NCBI GenBank assembly: GCA_017460915.1
Contig: JAFUAA010000048.1
Location: forward strand, 1 to 64,000
Origin: Bacteroidales bacterium
Lineage (GTDB): Bacteria > Bacteroidota > Bacteroidia > Bacteroidales > F082
Length of the DNA: 64,000 nucleotides
Direction of reading: 5' to 3'
The position numbers and the translations under genes were made by a program. Positions within the stretch are counted from its first letter, which is position 1. Each line of letters begins with the position of its first letter. Under the pieces are notes generated by a model that worked only from the letters and a program-made list of their open reading frames with translations, was not told the DNA's origin and searched no databases. This document shows positions 31,375 through 36,604 of the stretch, one piece after another.

Positions 31375-31410
31375 GTTTCTTTGCAAACTGAAACAAGACC
31401 TATAAATCAC

Positions 31411-32091
31411 ATGGCGAAGAAACTCCTTATAATCACGATTATGACACTTACCGCATTGTATTCCACTGCCCAAATCGATGTGCACAGCCACGCCATCACA
31501 GAGCCGTATCTTGAGTTTGTGAAGGCCAACCTATCGCGGTTGTACTATGACCTCGCCGGCGCGCCCACCGATGCCGCGATTGATGCCCTATTGACCATCA
31601 CCACGCCCGACCATCTCCTTTACGGCTCTGATTATCCGTATGTCGCCAATCCAGTTTTGGTTGAAGGCAAGAAAGCTTTGGAGCAACGGTTGGCTGCACA
31701 CGGACTGAATCCACAAGATGTCTTTTCCGACAATGCGAAACGATTGTTTGGAGAGGAAATCCCATTTAAGGAGAGCGGTGAAAGAATCGTCCGTCTCGCC
31801 GAAATCGAGGTGGAGCCTTCAATGCTTGAGGAATATTTGGTTTTTGCCAGGGAAGTCGGCGAGACCTCCACGAAAGTCGAGCCTGGCGTGCTGACCTTGT
31901 TCTCGATGCAAGACAAAGCCAATCCGTGCAAAATCTACATCCTCGAAATCTATGTCGACCAAGCCGCCTACCAAAGCCACATCCAAACGCCGCATTTCAA
32001 GAAATACAAAGAAGGCACGGCCAAGATGGTGAAGTCGCTGAAGTTAATCGACACGAAACCACTGGTGGGATTGGGGAAATTGGTGAAATAA
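31411..32091 (+). CDS. Truncated amidohydrolase fused to an antibiotic-biosynthesis-monooxygenase domain
   Basis: About 226 residues with a signal peptide (ending YSTAQ). IDVHSHAITEPYLEF is the metal-binding start of an amidohydrolase_2 enzyme, but within 10 residues the sequence jumps to that family's C-terminus (LYYDLAGAPT; LLYGSDYPYVANP; FSDNAKRLFG). Roughly 200 residues, including the central His ligands, are missing. From about residue 130 an ABM-type ferredoxin-like domain follows (EIEVEPSMLEEYLVFA ... ILEIYVDQAAYQSHIQTPHF). The amidohydrolase part is probably inactive; the ABM part may still act. The reading frame is intact. Confidence 0.75.
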   Translation: MAKKLLIITIMTLTALYSTAQIDVHSHAITEPYLEFVKANLSRLYYDLAGAPTDAAIDALLTITTPDHLLYGSDYPYVANPVLVEGKKALEQRLAAHGLNPQDVFSDNAKRLFGEEIPFKESGERIVRLAEIEVEPSMLEEYLVFAREVGETSTKVEPGVLTLFSMQDKANPCKIYILEIYVDQAAYQSHIQTPHFKKYKEGTAKMVKSLKLIDTKPLVGLGKLVK

Positions 32092-32097
32092 AAGGAT

Positions 32098-32278: not shown

Positions 32279-32650
32279 ATGGACAAGAAAGAAATCCTCA
32301 ACGCCACTTTCCCCGATTGTCCCGTGCGCAATGTCATTTCGCGCATCACCGACAAATGGTCATTGTTGGTGCTTTATACCTTAGAGCAACAGGATGTGCT
32401 GCGTTTCAACGACTTGTGGCGACAAATTCCCGACATTTCCCAAAAGATGCTCACCTCCACTTTGCGCCATCTTGAGAATGACGGCATCATCAGCCGCGAA
32501 ACCTTTGCCGAGGTGCCTCCCAAAGTGGAATACCGCCTCACCGAGCGCGGCAAGAGCCTTATGCCCCATCTCGATGCGCTGTTGAGTTGGGGAATGGAGC
32601 ATTTCGAGGATGTCATCAACGATAGGAAAAATCATTTAATTAACAGATAA
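32279..32650 (+). CDS. HxlR-family winged-helix regulator
   Basis: 123 residues matching HxlR proteins: CPVRNVISRITDKWSLLVLY near the start (with the conserved Cys), RFNDLWRQIPDISQKMLTST, and LENDGIISRETFAEVPPKVE. The conserved Cys in this family can act as a redox or electrophile sensor. It lies 29 bases upstream of the Cys-repeat peptide gene in the same direction and probably controls that locus. Confidence 0.9.
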   Translation: MDKKEILNATFPDCPVRNVISRITDKWSLLVLYTLEQQDVLRFNDLWRQIPDISQKMLTSTLRHLENDGIISRETFAEVPPKVEYRLTERGKSLMPHLDALLSWGMEHFEDVINDRKNHLINR

Positions 32651-32679
32651 TCAAATTGTTTAACTAAAATTTCACTACA

Positions 32680-32874
32680 ATGAAAAGATCAGAATTCGGA
32701 GGCTTCGTGGCCTCGTTCGCAATGAGAAGTTCAAGTGCTTGTGGCAGTGCCTGTGGCGCCGCCGAACCCAAGAAAGAAGAGAAGCCCTCGGCCTGCGGCA
32801 GCGCTTGCGGTGCGGCAAAACCTAAAAAAGAGGAAAAGCCGAGTGCCTGCGGCAGCGCTTGTGGAGCCAAGTAA
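32680..32874 (+). CDS. SACGSACGA-repeat peptide, putative RiPP precursor
   Basis: 64 residues: a leader of about 17 residues (MKRSEFGGFVASFAMRSS), then three cores SACGSACGA separated by two near-identical Lys/Glu/Pro spacers (PKKEEKPS). Six Cys occur in evenly spaced ACGx units. The three repeats use different synonymous codons, which indicates selection on the protein. A radical SAM/SPASM gene begins 10 bases downstream, so the Cys-rich cores are probably modified, for instance by thioether crosslinks. I recall an ACGX-repeat precursor class in protein-family collections; this has not been checked. No export gene is adjacent. Confidence 0.8.
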   Translation: MKRSEFGGFVASFAMRSSSACGSACGAAEPKKEEKPSACGSACGAAKPKKEEKPSACGSACGAK

Positions 32875-32884
32875 AAACAAGGCT

Positions 32885-33910
32885 ATGCAGTACTTTTCCT
32901 TCCAGTGGCATATCACCGACTATTGCGACCAACGTTGCAAGCATTGTTACATCTTCTCCGAGGGTCACCCTGAGTTGCTTTCTGTCAGTTTGGATTGTGC
33001 CATGACGGTGATTGACAACTGTTTGGAAATGTGCAAAAAGATGGGCGATCGCTTCCCGTACTTTTACATTACGGGAGGCGACCCCGTTTTGCATCCGCAG
33101 GTGTGGGACATTCTCGCCTATGTCAAGGAAAAGGGCATCCCGTTCACGATTCTGGGCAATCCCTTCCACCTGACCGACGAGGTGTGCCAAAAACTGAAGT
33201 TTTACGGCTGCGAGAAATACCAGTTGAGCATTGACGGCAACCGCGAAACGCACGACTATATGCGCAAGCCTGGCTCGTTCGACACGACTTTGGAGAAAAT
33301 CGAGGTGCTACACCGCAACGGCATCCGTGTGGCCGTGATGACTACCGTCTCGGGCGTGAATGCCGACCAGATGCCGGAAATCATCGATACGGTGGTGAAA
33401 CACGAAGTGGATGTTTTCGCCTTCGCGAGATACTGCCCGACGAGTTTGGAGAAAAGTGCCCACCTCACGCCGCAACAATACCGCCAAGTGTTGGACACTT
33501 GTTGGAAAAAGTATATGGAGTACGGCGACAACTGCAAGACCACTTTCAACCTGAAAGACCACCTTTGGGGCTTGTACTTGCACGAAATCGGCGAGTTCAA
33601 GATTCCCGAAGGTTTGGACGACGACACCGTCTACGACGGCTGCAATTGCGGTCACGGCCATTTCACCATCCTGCCCAACGGCGATGTGATGGCCTGCCGC
33701 CGCTTCGACAGCGTGGTGGGCAATGTCTTCGAAACGCCGCTCTACGACCTTTGGACCTCGCCCAAAATGGATTATTATCGCCAATACGAGAAGTTCGAGA
33801 AATGCGGCAAGTGCGAATTGTTACGGTTCTGCCGAGGCTGTCCCGCCGTGGCGTATGGATACACGCATGATTTTTACGCTGCTGACCCGCAGTGTTGGCG
33901 AGAGATTTAA
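32885..33910 (+). CDS. Radical SAM/SPASM enzyme, putative maturase of the ACGx peptide
   Basis: About 341 residues. The start at 32885 is preferred; upstream in-frame starts lie inside the peptide gene. The radical SAM motif CDQRCKHC (CxxxCxxC) is at about residues 14-21, with YITGGDPVLHP following. The C-terminal SPASM region has CNCGHGHFTILPNGDVMACR, GNVFETPLYDLW, and CGKCELLRFCRGCP, ligands for auxiliary Fe-S clusters. Such enzymes install thioether or other crosslinks on ribosomal peptides. Adjacency to the Cys-repeat peptide, 10 bases upstream, supports that role. Confidence 0.88.
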   Translation: MQYFSFQWHITDYCDQRCKHCYIFSEGHPELLSVSLDCAMTVIDNCLEMCKKMGDRFPYFYITGGDPVLHPQVWDILAYVKEKGIPFTILGNPFHLTDEVCQKLKFYGCEKYQLSIDGNRETHDYMRKPGSFDTTLEKIEVLHRNGIRVAVMTTVSGVNADQMPEIIDTVVKHEVDVFAFARYCPTSLEKSAHLTPQQYRQVLDTCWKKYMEYGDNCKTTFNLKDHLWGLYLHEIGEFKIPEGLDDDTVYDGCNCGHGHFTILPNGDVMACRRFDSVVGNVFETPLYDLWTSPKMDYYRQYEKFEKCGKCELLRFCRGCPAVAYGYTHDFYAADPQCWREI

Positions 33911-33933
33911 ATAATGCAGTATTTGTTTTTTTG

Positions 33934-33941
33934 TATTTTTG
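33934..33941 (+). promoter_or_regulatory. -7 box for the DUF488 cassette
   Basis: TATTTTTG followed by CA, 24 bases before the ATG at 33965. Confidence 0.65.
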
Positions 33942-33964
33942 CAGCATTGAAAAATGGCTTGATT

Positions 33965-34513
33965 ATGGCATCATCTACTTTATATTCAATCGGTCATGGT
34001 AATAAAACATTTGAGGAGTTTGAAAGAGAATTATGCTCTTTTGGCATACAATATCTTATTGATGTAAGAACAAAACCATACTCCAAATGGAATCCCACAT
34101 TCAATCAAAATATGCTTAAGTCTTTATTACAAAGAAATGGCTATATCTATGTGTACATGGGGGATAGCATTGGTGGTATGCCAAGTGATACTTCATGCTA
34201 TACCGATGGGCATATTGATTATTCAAAAGTTAAAGAAAAGGATTTTTTCAAGGCTGGTTTGATGAGATTGCTGACAGCTGCTGAAAAAAAGTTACGGGTT
34301 GCTATCATGTGTAGCGAATCTGAACCCGAAAAATGCCATCGTAGCAAACTAATCGGACAGGAGTTGATGAAATATGAGATATCGCTTAATCATATTGTTG
34401 GTGTTGGGAAAATACAATCACAAGAAACAGTTATGGCCATTCTGACAAGAGGGCTTGGTACTATGACCCTGTTTGGAGAAGAAACCTTTGTATCACGAAA
34501 AGCTTATTTATAA
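33965..34513 (+). CDS. DUF488 family protein
   Basis: About 182 residues. DUF488 hallmarks are LYSIGHGNKTFEEFERELCS at the start, LIDVRTKPYSKW, and CSESEPEKCHRSKLI near residue 120 (the CxExxPxxCHR motif). The function is unknown; the paired Cys and His suggest a metal or thiol site. The stop overlaps the next start by one base (TAATG). It is the first of three genes in an AT-rich cassette with its own promoter. Confidence 0.88.
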   Translation: MASSTLYSIGHGNKTFEEFERELCSFGIQYLIDVRTKPYSKWNPTFNQNMLKSLLQRNGYIYVYMGDSIGGMPSDTSCYTDGHIDYSKVKEKDFFKAGLMRLLTAAEKKLRVAIMCSESEPEKCHRSKLIGQELMKYEISLNHIVGVGKIQSQETVMAILTRGLGTMTLFGEETFVSRKAYL

Positions 34514-34973
34514 TGAAAGTCTATACAATTGGAGTGTATGGTTCAACGGAACAGCAATTCTTTGGCAAACTGATTGAAAACAAAATAGACACATTTTGTG
34601 ATATTCGTCAACGTCGAGGAGTACGAGGAGGTGAATATGCCTTTGTGAATAGCAATTATTTACAAAAGAAACCAGATATGGCCATATAATAGAATTGGCT
34701 CCAACAACCGAAATAAGAGAAAAGCAGAAAGCGGCAGATATGAAGAATGGAGAACGCAAACGCGATAGAACACAATTAGGATACACATTTATCCGAGAAT
34801 ACAAGAAACATATAGAGAATTATGATTTTGATGCTCTCGCTTCGTATTTGGACGATATAGGAGCAAATCGGATTGTGTTCTTCTGCGTTGAGCAATACCC
34901 AAGTGCTTGCCATCGTTCCATTGTCGCAGAAGAATTACATAAGAGATTCAATTTTGATGTAATACATTTGTGA
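34513..34973 (+). pseudogene. Second DUF488 gene, frameshifted
   Basis: The first segment (MKVYTIGVYGSTEQQFFGKL ... DTFCDIRQRRGVRGGEYAFV) runs to a stop at about 34689. The remainder continues in another frame (RYGHIIELAPTTEIR ... FFCVEQYPSACHRSIVAEEL) to 34973. The CVEQYPSACHR motif is intact. The break lies near 34675, just after LQKK, where a short stretch seems to have been lost. If real, the gene is inactive unless frameshifting occurs; an assembly error is possible. Confidence 0.75.
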
Positions 34974-34974
34974 A

Positions 34975-35628
34975 ATGAGCAAAGTACTGATAGTATCTAA
35001 AACACGCATGGCCGATGACAAAGTTTGCGTCGGAGGTGTAGATGTTGAATGGAAAAGGTCTGTTCGGCTGATGAAGGCAGATGGAAAACATGAAAAAGTA
35101 TCAGAATGTCCGTGTGAGATATATGATGTGTGGGATTTGGACTACATTAATTCGAATCAACGTCCTACACCTCATGTTGAAGATGTCAATGTGATTAGCA
35201 GACAGAAGAAGAGCGTGTTGAAGGATGAAATAAGGCAGGTAGGTAAACTTTCTCAATTGCTGAAACAAACCAACATTCCTGTATTCAATGGGGGACTTCT
35301 GTCTGTATTTGACAGAACACTAAAAGCAACACAATACGGTACATTGTTCATAAACAAAGAAAATGTTCCGTCATACAGCACTTGTTTTTGGATTTGTGAC
35401 AGAGATGTCCACCGAAGAGATTTCCGAGGAAAGCATCGTTACAATTACAACGATGGTTCAAAACAATGGGGATATAACATCTCATATGTTGGCCTGACTG
35501 ATGCTATTGATATTATTCCGCAAGGCTCATTGATTAGGCTTTCTTTAGCACACCGGTGGTCACCAGAAGATTCAGAGGATGAAGAAAGATGTTATTTACA
35601 ATTGTCAGGATGGTTTAAAAATGAGTAG
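34975..35628 (+). CDS. Dual-OB-domain-like protein of a DUF488 cassette
   Basis: 217 residues starting one base after the second DUF488 stop. The sequence (KVLIVSKTRMADDKVCVGGV; SVRLMKADGKH; YEIYDVWDLDYI-type region; IRLSLAHRWSP near the end) resembles proteins annotated as dual-OB (DuOB) domain proteins, which I recall next to DUF488 genes. OB folds suggest nucleic-acid or nucleotide binding. Function and cofactor are unknown. Visibly AT-rich, like the two preceding genes. Confidence 0.65.
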   Translation: MSKVLIVSKTRMADDKVCVGGVDVEWKRSVRLMKADGKHEKVSECPCEIYDVWDLDYINSNQRPTPHVEDVNVISRQKKSVLKDEIRQVGKLSQLLKQTNIPVFNGGLLSVFDRTLKATQYGTLFINKENVPSYSTCFWICDRDVHRRDFRGKHRYNYNDGSKQWGYNISYVGLTDAIDIIPQGSLIRLSLAHRWSPEDSEDEERCYLQLSGWFKNE

Positions 35629-35635
35629 TTTAACA

Positions 35636-36604
35636 ATGAAAGCTATCATCCTCTACCATCGTTGCTCCGCCGATGAAATGCGCGTGAGTGAAATCCCGAT
35701 TCCCGAAGTGAAGCTAGGCTGGGTCTTGGTGAAAATCCACGCCGCCGGGCTGAACCATTCCGAGGCTTTGCTGCGAATGTTTGAAATCGAGAACGACTAT
35801 ATCCAGAAGCCCATCGTGCCGGGCATCGAGTGCGTGGGCGAGATAGCAGACCCTTCTGACAGCCATTTTTCGAAAGGCGACAAGGTCATCGCGCTGATGG
35901 GCGGAATGGGACGCTCGTTCAATGGCAGTTACGCCGAATACGCCTTGCTCCCTGCGGCCAATGTCTTCAAAGTAGAAACCGACTTGGACTGGATTTCGTT
36001 GGCCGCAGTTCCCGAGACTTATTTCACCGCCTACGGCTCGTTGACGGAATGCCTGCTGCTCAAAGAGGGCGACACGCTTTTGGTGCGCGGCGCGACCAGT
36101 ACCGTCGGACAAGCCGCCGTCCAACTCGGCAAGGCGATAGGCGCAAGAGTCATTGCCGCTTGCCGCAAGGAAAAAGACTTTGACCGCCTGAAAGCCATCG
36201 GTGCGGGTTTCTGCTGCATCGACGACGGCAATTTGGCGGAAAGCCTGCCCACGGAAATGCGCCCGAACAAGGTTTTGGAACTCGTTGGGCCGGCGACTTT
36301 ACAAGACAGCCTCTGTTGCGTCACGCGGCCTGGCTATGTCTGCAACACGGGCATCCTCGGAAACGTCTTCACCGTGGAGCATTTCGACCCCATCAAATAC
36401 ATCCCCAACGGCGTGTTCCTCTCGGGCTTTTTCTCCAATTTCCCGACAAAAACGACCATTGACGCGATGTTTGATTTGATCAATAAAACACACATCAAAC
36501 CATTGTATGCCAAGGTTTTCGGATTAGACGAAATTGCCCAGGCGCACGCTTTGTTGGAGAAAGGCGGCGCAGGTGGGAAAATCATTTTGAAAATCAACGG
36601 ATAA
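35636..36604 (+). CDS. Zinc-independent medium-chain dehydrogenase/reductase (quinone oxidoreductase-like)
   Basis: About 322 residues from MKAIILYHR; an in-frame ATG at 35621 is an alternative. The GroES-like N-domain (GLNHSEALLRMFEI; PGIECVGEI) and a Rossmann domain (LLVRGATSTVGQAAVQLGKA) are complete. It lacks the usual catalytic-zinc Cys/His set, as in quinone oxidoreductases. The base composition is back to that of the surrounding chromosome after the AT-rich cassette. Confidence 0.88.
   Translation: MKAIILYHRCSADEMRVSEIPIPEVKLGWVLVKIHAAGLNHSEALLRMFEIENDYIQKPIVPGIECVGEIADPSDSHFSKGDKVIALMGGMGRSFNGSYAEYALLPAANVFKVETDLDWISLAAVPETYFTAYGSLTECLLLKEGDTLLVRGATSTVGQAAVQLGKAIGARVIAACRKEKDFDRLKAIGAGFCCIDDGNLAESLPTEMRPNKVLELVGPATLQDSLCCVTRPGYVCNTGILGNVFTVEHFDPIKYIPNGVFLSGFFSNFPTKTTIDAMFDLINKTHIKPLYAKVFGLDEIAQAHALLEKGGAGGKIILKING

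Follow-up and report, generated by a model that had tools for sequence, protein, structure and literature searches.

The ACGX peptide and radical SAM enzyme pair lies near NAD(P)H/flavin oxidoreductases and an HxlR regulator in bacteria and methanogens

The ACGX system pairs a repeat peptide, AcgA, with a radical SAM/SPASM enzyme, AcgM. A copy lies behind a gene for an HxlR-type regulator at 32279..33910 of the 64,000-nucleotide stretch analyzed here (the window: positions 1 to 64,000, forward strand, of contig JAFUAA010000048.1 from a Bacteroidales bacterium, assembly GCA_017460915.1). The window copy adds an ordinary member to this named family. Related loci from Bacteroidota, Clostridia and methanogens usually carry an NAD(P)H/flavin oxidoreductase directly after acgM, and we lean toward reading the ACGX system as a redox peptide module that works inside the cell under HxlR control. 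The archaeal precursors, the redox context and the predicted shared regulatory site are undescribed, as far as searches show, and change the most likely role of the system. Linkage to HxlR and to oxidoreductases found only where acgM is, seen in three major lineages from two domains of life, would recast a peptide presumed to be secreted as part of a redox system that has named partners and can be tested. Open-licence PubMed Central returned no paper on ACGX with radical SAM, on the TIGR accessions or names of the system, or on HxlR together with a radical SAM enzyme and a precursor peptide. No paper combining the HxlR family, quinone, nitroreductase and thiol was found, and the text of a survey of ribosomally synthesized and post-translationally modified peptides (RiPPs) in Bacteroidales (PMC10352776) contains neither 'ACG' nor 'HxlR'.

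The window locus, its peptide and its enzyme

The three open reading frames (ORFs) of the locus lie on the + strand of one contig, in an assembly that is 95.67% complete. The first (32279..32650, 123 amino acids) encodes a winged-helix regulator that matches PF01638 (E = 3.4e-31) and has a conserved Cys in a DCPVRN motif. It is followed by acgA (32680..32874, 64 amino acids), which encodes three SACGSACGA units at residues 19-27, 37-45 and 55-63 with Lys/Glu/Pro spacers. After a gap of exactly 10 bases, acgM (32885..33910, 341 amino acids) starts with the ATG at 32885 and ends with a stop codon that closes at 33910. A preliminary description made from the letters alone had drawn these three ORFs with the correct positions and residues, the HxlR gene directly upstream of the peptide, the three cores and the 10-base gap, and its remark that the cores differ in codons and not in residues applies to all three. 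The comparison it proposed with ACGX-repeat models and radical SAM subfamilies gives the peptide 40.5 bits against TIGR04341 (ACGX-repeat peptide, cut-off 28) and the enzyme 558.8 bits over its whole length against TIGR04340 (radical SAM/SPASM protein, ACGX system, cut-off 400). The system is named by these two models in NCBIfam, and a Roseburia plasmid record bears the gene names acgA and acgM. The peptide has a single match in the window genome. It differs from its counterpart in locus L003 by 26 synonymous and 1 non-synonymous codons among 64 and from that in the sister locus L002 by 6 and 1, an excess that identifies acgA as a protein-coding gene under purifying selection. Because peptide and enzyme exceed the curated cut-offs and the peptide codon changes are mostly synonymous, the locus is not a chance arrangement.

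Neighborhoods were counted in a discovery set of 37 loci (32 from genome contigs, the window, L038 and three plasmid loci), several of which are close kin. Before counting, L035 (226 bits, under the cut-off of 400) was dropped, as were L036, L037, L039 and L040 (contigs of L002, L003, L006 and L004). L014 was kept; it is labelled Oscillospiraceae, its enzyme groups with Bacteroidales and the contig is probably mis-binned. An ACG peptide lies upstream of acgM in 34 of the 37 loci; it is cut by the contig start in L014, L017 and L021 and contains a run of N in L020. In two of the three loci without a peptide, the contig leaves just 4 (L031) and 96 (L033) bases before acgM. The third is a Methanobrevibacter contig (L026, 1-1162) in which acgM has an in-frame stop, the 163 upstream bases hold no ACG unit in three forward frames and no oxidoreductase lies within 2.5 kb. 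L026 may be a decayed locus.

Cysteine is followed by Gly at 205 of 209 positions and preceded by Ala at 191 in 32 distinct peptide readings. The peptides contain 3 to 12 Cys, both 3-Cys peptides being truncated by contig ends, and their N-termini vary between lineages. Two archaeal peptides score 10.4 and 11.4 bits against TIGR04341, and one archaeal precursor carries the annotation 'hypothetical protein'. Such low archaeal scores against the current model suggest a family wider than annotated.

AcgM contains the PF04055 and PF13186 domains. Its invariant cysteines in 31 aligned sequences (L026, with its one in-frame stop, is omitted) are those of the CX3CX2C motif at residues 14, 18 and 21 and C-terminal residues 253, 255, 271, 307, 310, 316, 319 and 337. 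The nearest solved structures are SkfB, then 5v1q and 5wgg, which we take to be SuiB and CteB, and alignment with them begins only at residue 100-136. The radical SAM match of AcgM starts at residue 10, and AcgM is therefore predicted to be too short at its N-terminus for a peptide-recognition domain like those of SkfB, 5v1q and 5wgg. Two other assignments of the enzyme were rejected. Viperin models of anti-phage defence give AcgM 65 bits (E = 1.7e-18), far under its 559 bits for TIGR04340, and the SbtM model gives 183 bits against a cut-off of 350; among the literature matches listed for SbtM, the letters had unrelated uses.

The nearest solved relatives of AcgM are peptide-modifying enzymes, as expected if AcgA were an exported RiPP, an antimicrobial or signal of the sactipeptide or ranthipeptide type, with transporter and protease genes located elsewhere. 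Cysteine spacing points the same way. CX3C (Cys at +4) accounts for 79 of the 209 cysteines, and Asp or Glu stands at +3 or +4 after 100 of the other 130, which resembles the Cys-X3-Asp/Glu carried by PapB substrates in the relevant passages of PMC9413430; the window peptide has Asp or Glu at these positions in the first of its three units only. The neighborhoods argue against export. The scan took in 103 of 136 candidate neighbors of at least 110 amino acids within 4.5 kb and left out the window's own neighbors, some very long proteins and some short ones; its results refer to the 25 of 109 Pfam families listed. No family occurs in more than 4 of the 103 neighbors. An AraC-type helix-turn-helix is found in 4, AAA_14 and nitroreductase in 3 each, and Cys/Met pyridoxal phosphate enzymes, aldo/keto reductase, AAA, DUF4143, CMD, CarboxypepD_reg, flavin reductase, two aminotransferase models and Fer4_9 in two each. 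No linked transporter or leader peptidase of the kind expected for an exported bacteriocin is among the families listed for at least two neighbors, single occurrences being possible. A simple hydropathy scan found no signal-peptide-like stretch in 28 Met-starting peptides (the top 10-residue Kyte-Doolittle mean was 1.65, and the window peptide is among those reaching it). With conserved redox neighbors added, an exported RiPP is quite unlikely. The RiPP pathway of the preliminary description stands as far as the conserved set of ACGX precursor, SPASM enzyme and HxlR regulator is concerned, and its question of export or action inside the cell leans to the inside. The conserved redox-enzyme neighbors had escaped it.

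Oxidoreductase partners and the HxlR regulator

An NAD(P)H/flavin oxidoreductase is encoded within 2.5 kb of acgM in 35 of the 37 loci and directly after acgM in 33. The latter comprise 16 MDR quinone-reductase-like enzymes, 13 nitroreductases and 4 PNPOx-ferredoxin proteins, and a PNPOx-ferredoxin gene lies between acgA and acgM in L004, L006 and L015. In the genus of the window, acgM is present in 6 of 99 genomes and the MDR enzyme (E <= 1e-25) in the identical six (Fisher p = 9e-10, genomes treated as independent here and below). In Methanosphaera, the genus of the L020 genome, acgM is present in 10 of 20 genomes, nine above the cut-off and the tenth a split copy. The MDR enzyme (E <= 1e-40) occurs in 9 of the 20, every one with acgM (p = 1.2e-4), and in the acgM genome without MDR (G535) a PNPOx-ferredoxin gene adjoins acgM. 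The MDR type was thus found only in genomes with acgM. Five of 70 genomes of a clostridial family have acgM. A nitroreductase scoring at least 280 bits is present in four of these five and in none of the other 65 (p = 5e-6), a level chosen after the scores were seen, the next full-length match having 110 bits; the fifth acgM genome (G522) has MDR (L032). Restriction of an oxidoreductase to genomes with the peptide system, the pattern of mycofactocin, is therefore seen for MDR in two genera and for the nitroreductase in one family at its post hoc level, and linkage leaves dependence unproven.

The window encodes an MDR-family NAD(P)H:quinone-oxidoreductase-like enzyme at 35636..36604 (+ strand, start ATG 35636) that scores 161 bits against TIGR02824, below the cut-off of 296.8. 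In L002 the MDR gene lies directly 3' of acgM, whereas in the window it is 1.7 kb off, behind a cassette at 33914..35628 (+ strand) that encodes a DUF488 protein, a short DUF488-like ORF and a DuOB protein (the first and last named by Pfam, the middle one by resemblance only). L002 has no cassette at the corresponding site, and the sequence flanking that site is 94.7% (acgM side) and 91.8% (MDR side) identical between the two. The cassette is taken as an insertion between acgM and its MDR partner, outside the ACGX system, because it is absent from the same place in L002. The MDR enzyme would then be the dedicated partner of acgM, displaced by the insertion. Among PADLOC models, the candidate defence model PDC-M45B matches the first DUF488 protein of the cassette (E = 7.6e-48).

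The window genome has one HxlR match at E <= 1e-5, the acgA-adjacent gene, and chance adjacency was rejected because of this single match. An HxlR gene lies within 2.5 kb of acgM in 28 of the 37 loci. The contigs of eight of the remaining nine end within 1.05 kb upstream of acgM, and L030 is the true exception, with HxlR 6 kb from acgM. Neighbor conservation, which the preliminary description had proposed to examine, is borne out by this count and by the peptide that precedes the enzyme. In 12 Bacteroidales loci the HxlR gene lies upstream in the same orientation. It is downstream in L024, L026 and L033 and divergent in L016, L022, the Methanosphaera loci with that side covered and most Clostridia; the HxlR-acg association has therefore survived rearrangement. 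The Cys of the DCPVRN motif is invariant in all 18 aligned HxlR proteins from these loci. An HxlR domain with a conserved N-terminal Cys near an oxidoreductase, the arrangement of an HxlR redox regulon, is thus present, the oxidoreductase of the window being displaced.

A palindrome, GTWAC-N6-GTWAC, was first spotted by eye in the HxlR-acgA regions and then counted in a set without L009, L024-L026, L030, L033 and L043. Between HxlR and acgA it is exact in 4/4 archaeal regions, of which L018 and L042 are nearly identical, and in 5/6 clostridial regions it occurs with one mismatch at the most, in L032 at a second, asymmetric place. It is exact upstream of HxlR in 4/11 Bacteroidales regions, all of them L010-L013, and at no more than one mismatch it was absent from L016, L022 and 13 further HxlR regions of the genus. 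Base shuffles gave expected counts of 0.04 for the archaeal, 0.16 for the clostridial and 0.19 for the Bacteroidales regions, and 0 of 500 reached the observed count. Among spacings of 0-15, the archaeal group has spacing 6 alone (others reach at most 1/4), and in Clostridia spacing 13 reaches 4/6. Seven loci (L068, L074, L075, L076, L079, L081 and L082, some of them close kin) were fetched after the discovery and unused in it. All seven have the exact palindrome with a divergent HxlR gene, and all seven have the peptide and an oxidoreductase beside acgM. The palindrome is predicted to be a shared regulatory site of archaea and Clostridia.

HxlR regulators of quinone and electrophile responses include YodB, HypR and QorR. 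By analogy with this family, the HxlR protein of the ACGX loci would repress the operon until an electrophile or oxidant acts at the conserved Cys and releases it. The operon would then yield AcgA, with its repeated ACG units that in bacteria are carried on charged Pro/Lys/Glu spacers, and AcgM would modify the units by radical chemistry, probably at Cys or neighboring residues. The product would stay intracellular and work with a dedicated NAD(P)H/flavin oxidoreductase, usually the one encoded directly after acgM, which by lineage would be an MDR quinone-reductase-like enzyme, a nitroreductase or an FMN/ferredoxin protein. The observed linkage and restricted occurrence suggest this functional dependence.

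A cofactor role for AcgA is plausible because oxidoreductases that occur only with the mycofactocin system predicted a ribosomal electron carrier, as set out in parts of PMC3023750. A fuller version of this role is a tentative possibility. AcgA would be the precursor of a new ribosomal redox cofactor or electron carrier of gut anaerobes, shared by bacteria and methanogens, its mature form being the private partner of the MDR, nitroreductase and PNPOx-ferredoxin enzymes under a thiol-sensing HxlR switch. It would run parallel to mycofactocin and be evolutionarily separate from it, and the clostridial form may also be the missing carrier of SirTM/Zn-macrodomain ADP-ribosylation.

The same neighborhoods could arise from a stress cassette with no shared cofactor, in which AcgA is a sacrificial thiol or metal trap of the metallothionein type that is merely co-regulated by HxlR with detoxifying reductases. 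The HxlR neighbor recurs while the oxidoreductase family varies, HxlR genes without acgM in the same genus lead other cargo (such as an MBL-fold-like protein with SIR2), and the Cys content of the peptides, with the truncated 3-Cys examples at its lower end, is what a simple sink would allow. A pure thiol trap has no need of a radical SAM enzyme, however, and in the sets searched no MDR ortholog and no complete close nitroreductase was found without acgM. This account is doubtful, and it retains some weight because linkage alone could explain the restricted occurrence and because the oxidoreductase family differs from lineage to lineage.

Several observations weigh against a redox peptide module. 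An oxidoreductase gene is missing within 2.5 kb of acgM in L026 and L030, and L022 and the window have one nearby that does not directly follow acgM. At E <= 1e-15 the nitroreductase probe finds 15 of the 70 clostridial genomes, 11 of them without acgM; one of these 11, G584, has a nitroreductase that is close but truncated (80% identity over 60 residues), next to genes for a macrodomain and a sirtuin protein. Genomes are not independent in the way the Fisher tests assume, nor are neighborhood counts that include close kin. Transfer of the whole cassette, with the oxidoreductase beside acgM, could yield the restricted occurrence without biochemical dependence, and three unrelated oxidoreductase families in the slot fit shared regulation as well as a shared cofactor. 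HxlR also occurs without acgM: it is present in 21 of the 99 genomes of the genus, only 3 of them with acgM (p = 0.11); in the other three acgM genomes the contigs end near acgA. The operator case is weak in Bacteroidales because spacing 14 scores 4/11, equal to spacing 6. The window and its closest kin match the palindrome with 2-3 mismatches only, so a shared operator in this clade is unsupported and none is claimed.

Sirtuin and macrodomain genes, distribution and side observations

Twelve of the 37 loci have SIR2 and/or Zn-macrodomain genes within 4.5 kb; among the 25 loci whose contigs reach at least 4 kb on the 3' side, 11 do. On the Roseburia plasmid they form one codirectional run with acgA-acgM-nitroreductase-4Fe4S. 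The pair of sirtuin and zinc macrodomain hydrolase is tied to oxidative stress elsewhere, and in some lineages, mainly Clostridia, the ACGX region continues into this pair. These arrangements allow a picture in which an ADP-ribosylation switch acts on AcgA as its carrier substrate, with AcgA in the place that lipoylated GcvH-L has in the extended SirTM operon. We regard this as very unlikely: the pair is missing in most of the loci whose 3' side is long enough to show it, a Zn-macrodomain search of the window genome at E <= 1e-30 found nothing, so that no SirTM/Zn-macrodomain operon is seen there, and at eight loci of the genus SIR2 stands behind HxlR without acgM (L049, L051, L052, L054, L055, L056, L058 and L062). 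SirTM-like ADP-ribosylation of AcgA is speculation. In six of those eight loci a protein that is presumably MBL-fold-like lies between HxlR and the sirtuin gene.

Metagenome contigs often break off close to HxlR or to where acgA begins (L004, L006, L046, L047, L048, L056, L059, L060 and L061), perhaps because the genes carried behind HxlR vary between strains. A stretch of G584 (L103, 1360-2887) holds the truncated nitroreductase followed by the macrodomain and sirtuin genes, with neither acgA nor acgM, and may be a decayed ACGX locus.

AcgM identity to the window enzyme ranges from 96 to 56%, and is about 61% for the archaeal enzymes. The five archaeal sequences form one clade in the AcgM tree (100/99), and the phylum labels on the tree need 3 changes, where at least 2 are required and shuffled labels average 12.7. 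At E <= 1e-30 there are matches in four plasmid records, two of which are versions of one record, and the ACGX system can therefore travel on megaplasmids. Phage cargo was rejected, as a pattern-based scan of viral contigs gave no relative. The identity of about 61% between window and archaeal enzymes, the sporadic occurrence and the megaplasmid copies suggest transfer among gut anaerobes. On Methanosphaera sp. ISO3-F5 plasmid pNP174 (L042, 8995-10019), acgM is annotated as two ORFs and BREX genes lie a few kb downstream. Upstream of the window locus, 31414-32091 encodes an amidohydrolase fragment fused to an ABM monooxygenase domain; a stretch of about 31375-32097 is missing in L002, and an ABM protein likewise adjoins acgM in L022.

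Comparison with known systems

The window genes agree with the NCBIfam description of ACGX in being adjacent and above both curated cut-offs. The NCBIfam names carry no function, and the two archaeal precursors tested fall below the TIGR04341 cut-off. HxlR quinone and electrophile regulons resemble the ACGX loci in placing a conserved-Cys HxlR protein beside quinone-oxidoreductase- or nitroreductase-type enzymes; to our knowledge, the YodB, HypR and QorR regulons contain no radical SAM peptide pair.

Ranthipeptide and sactipeptide systems (PapB, SkfB, CteB) likewise join a radical SAM enzyme to a Cys-containing precursor, and some AcgA cysteines lie in CX2-3[D/E]. They differ in that AcgM gives 63 bits against the PapB model NF047865 (cut-off 340) and is predicted to lack the N-terminal recognition domain, and ACGX loci have no recurrent export genes among the families listed. 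The SirTM operon, in which a lipoylated carrier protein is ADP-ribosylated according to sections of PMC4518038 and PMC11490716, shares with the 12 ACGX loci noted above a sirtuin and/or Zn-macrodomain gene near oxidoreductases. It differs from them in that no GcvH-like or lipoate-ligase family is among the recurrent neighbors listed, and the window genome has no Zn-macrodomain match.

Mycofactocin, as described in portions of PMC3023750, is similar in its sporadic distribution reaching archaea, its PqqE-like radical SAM maturase, its small precursor with a Cys-Gly motif and neither signal peptide nor transporter, and its oxidoreductases that occur only with the system. The differences are that AcgM scores 76.9 bits against the maturase model TIGR03962 (cut-off 265), that AcgA is a multi-unit repeat, and that the ACGX partner enzyme is linked whereas the mycofactocin enzymes of that description are dispersed. 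If mature AcgA is a redox carrier, it would join pyrroloquinoline quinone (PQQ) and mycofactocin as a ribosomal redox cofactor, in rumen and gut anaerobes that include methanogens.

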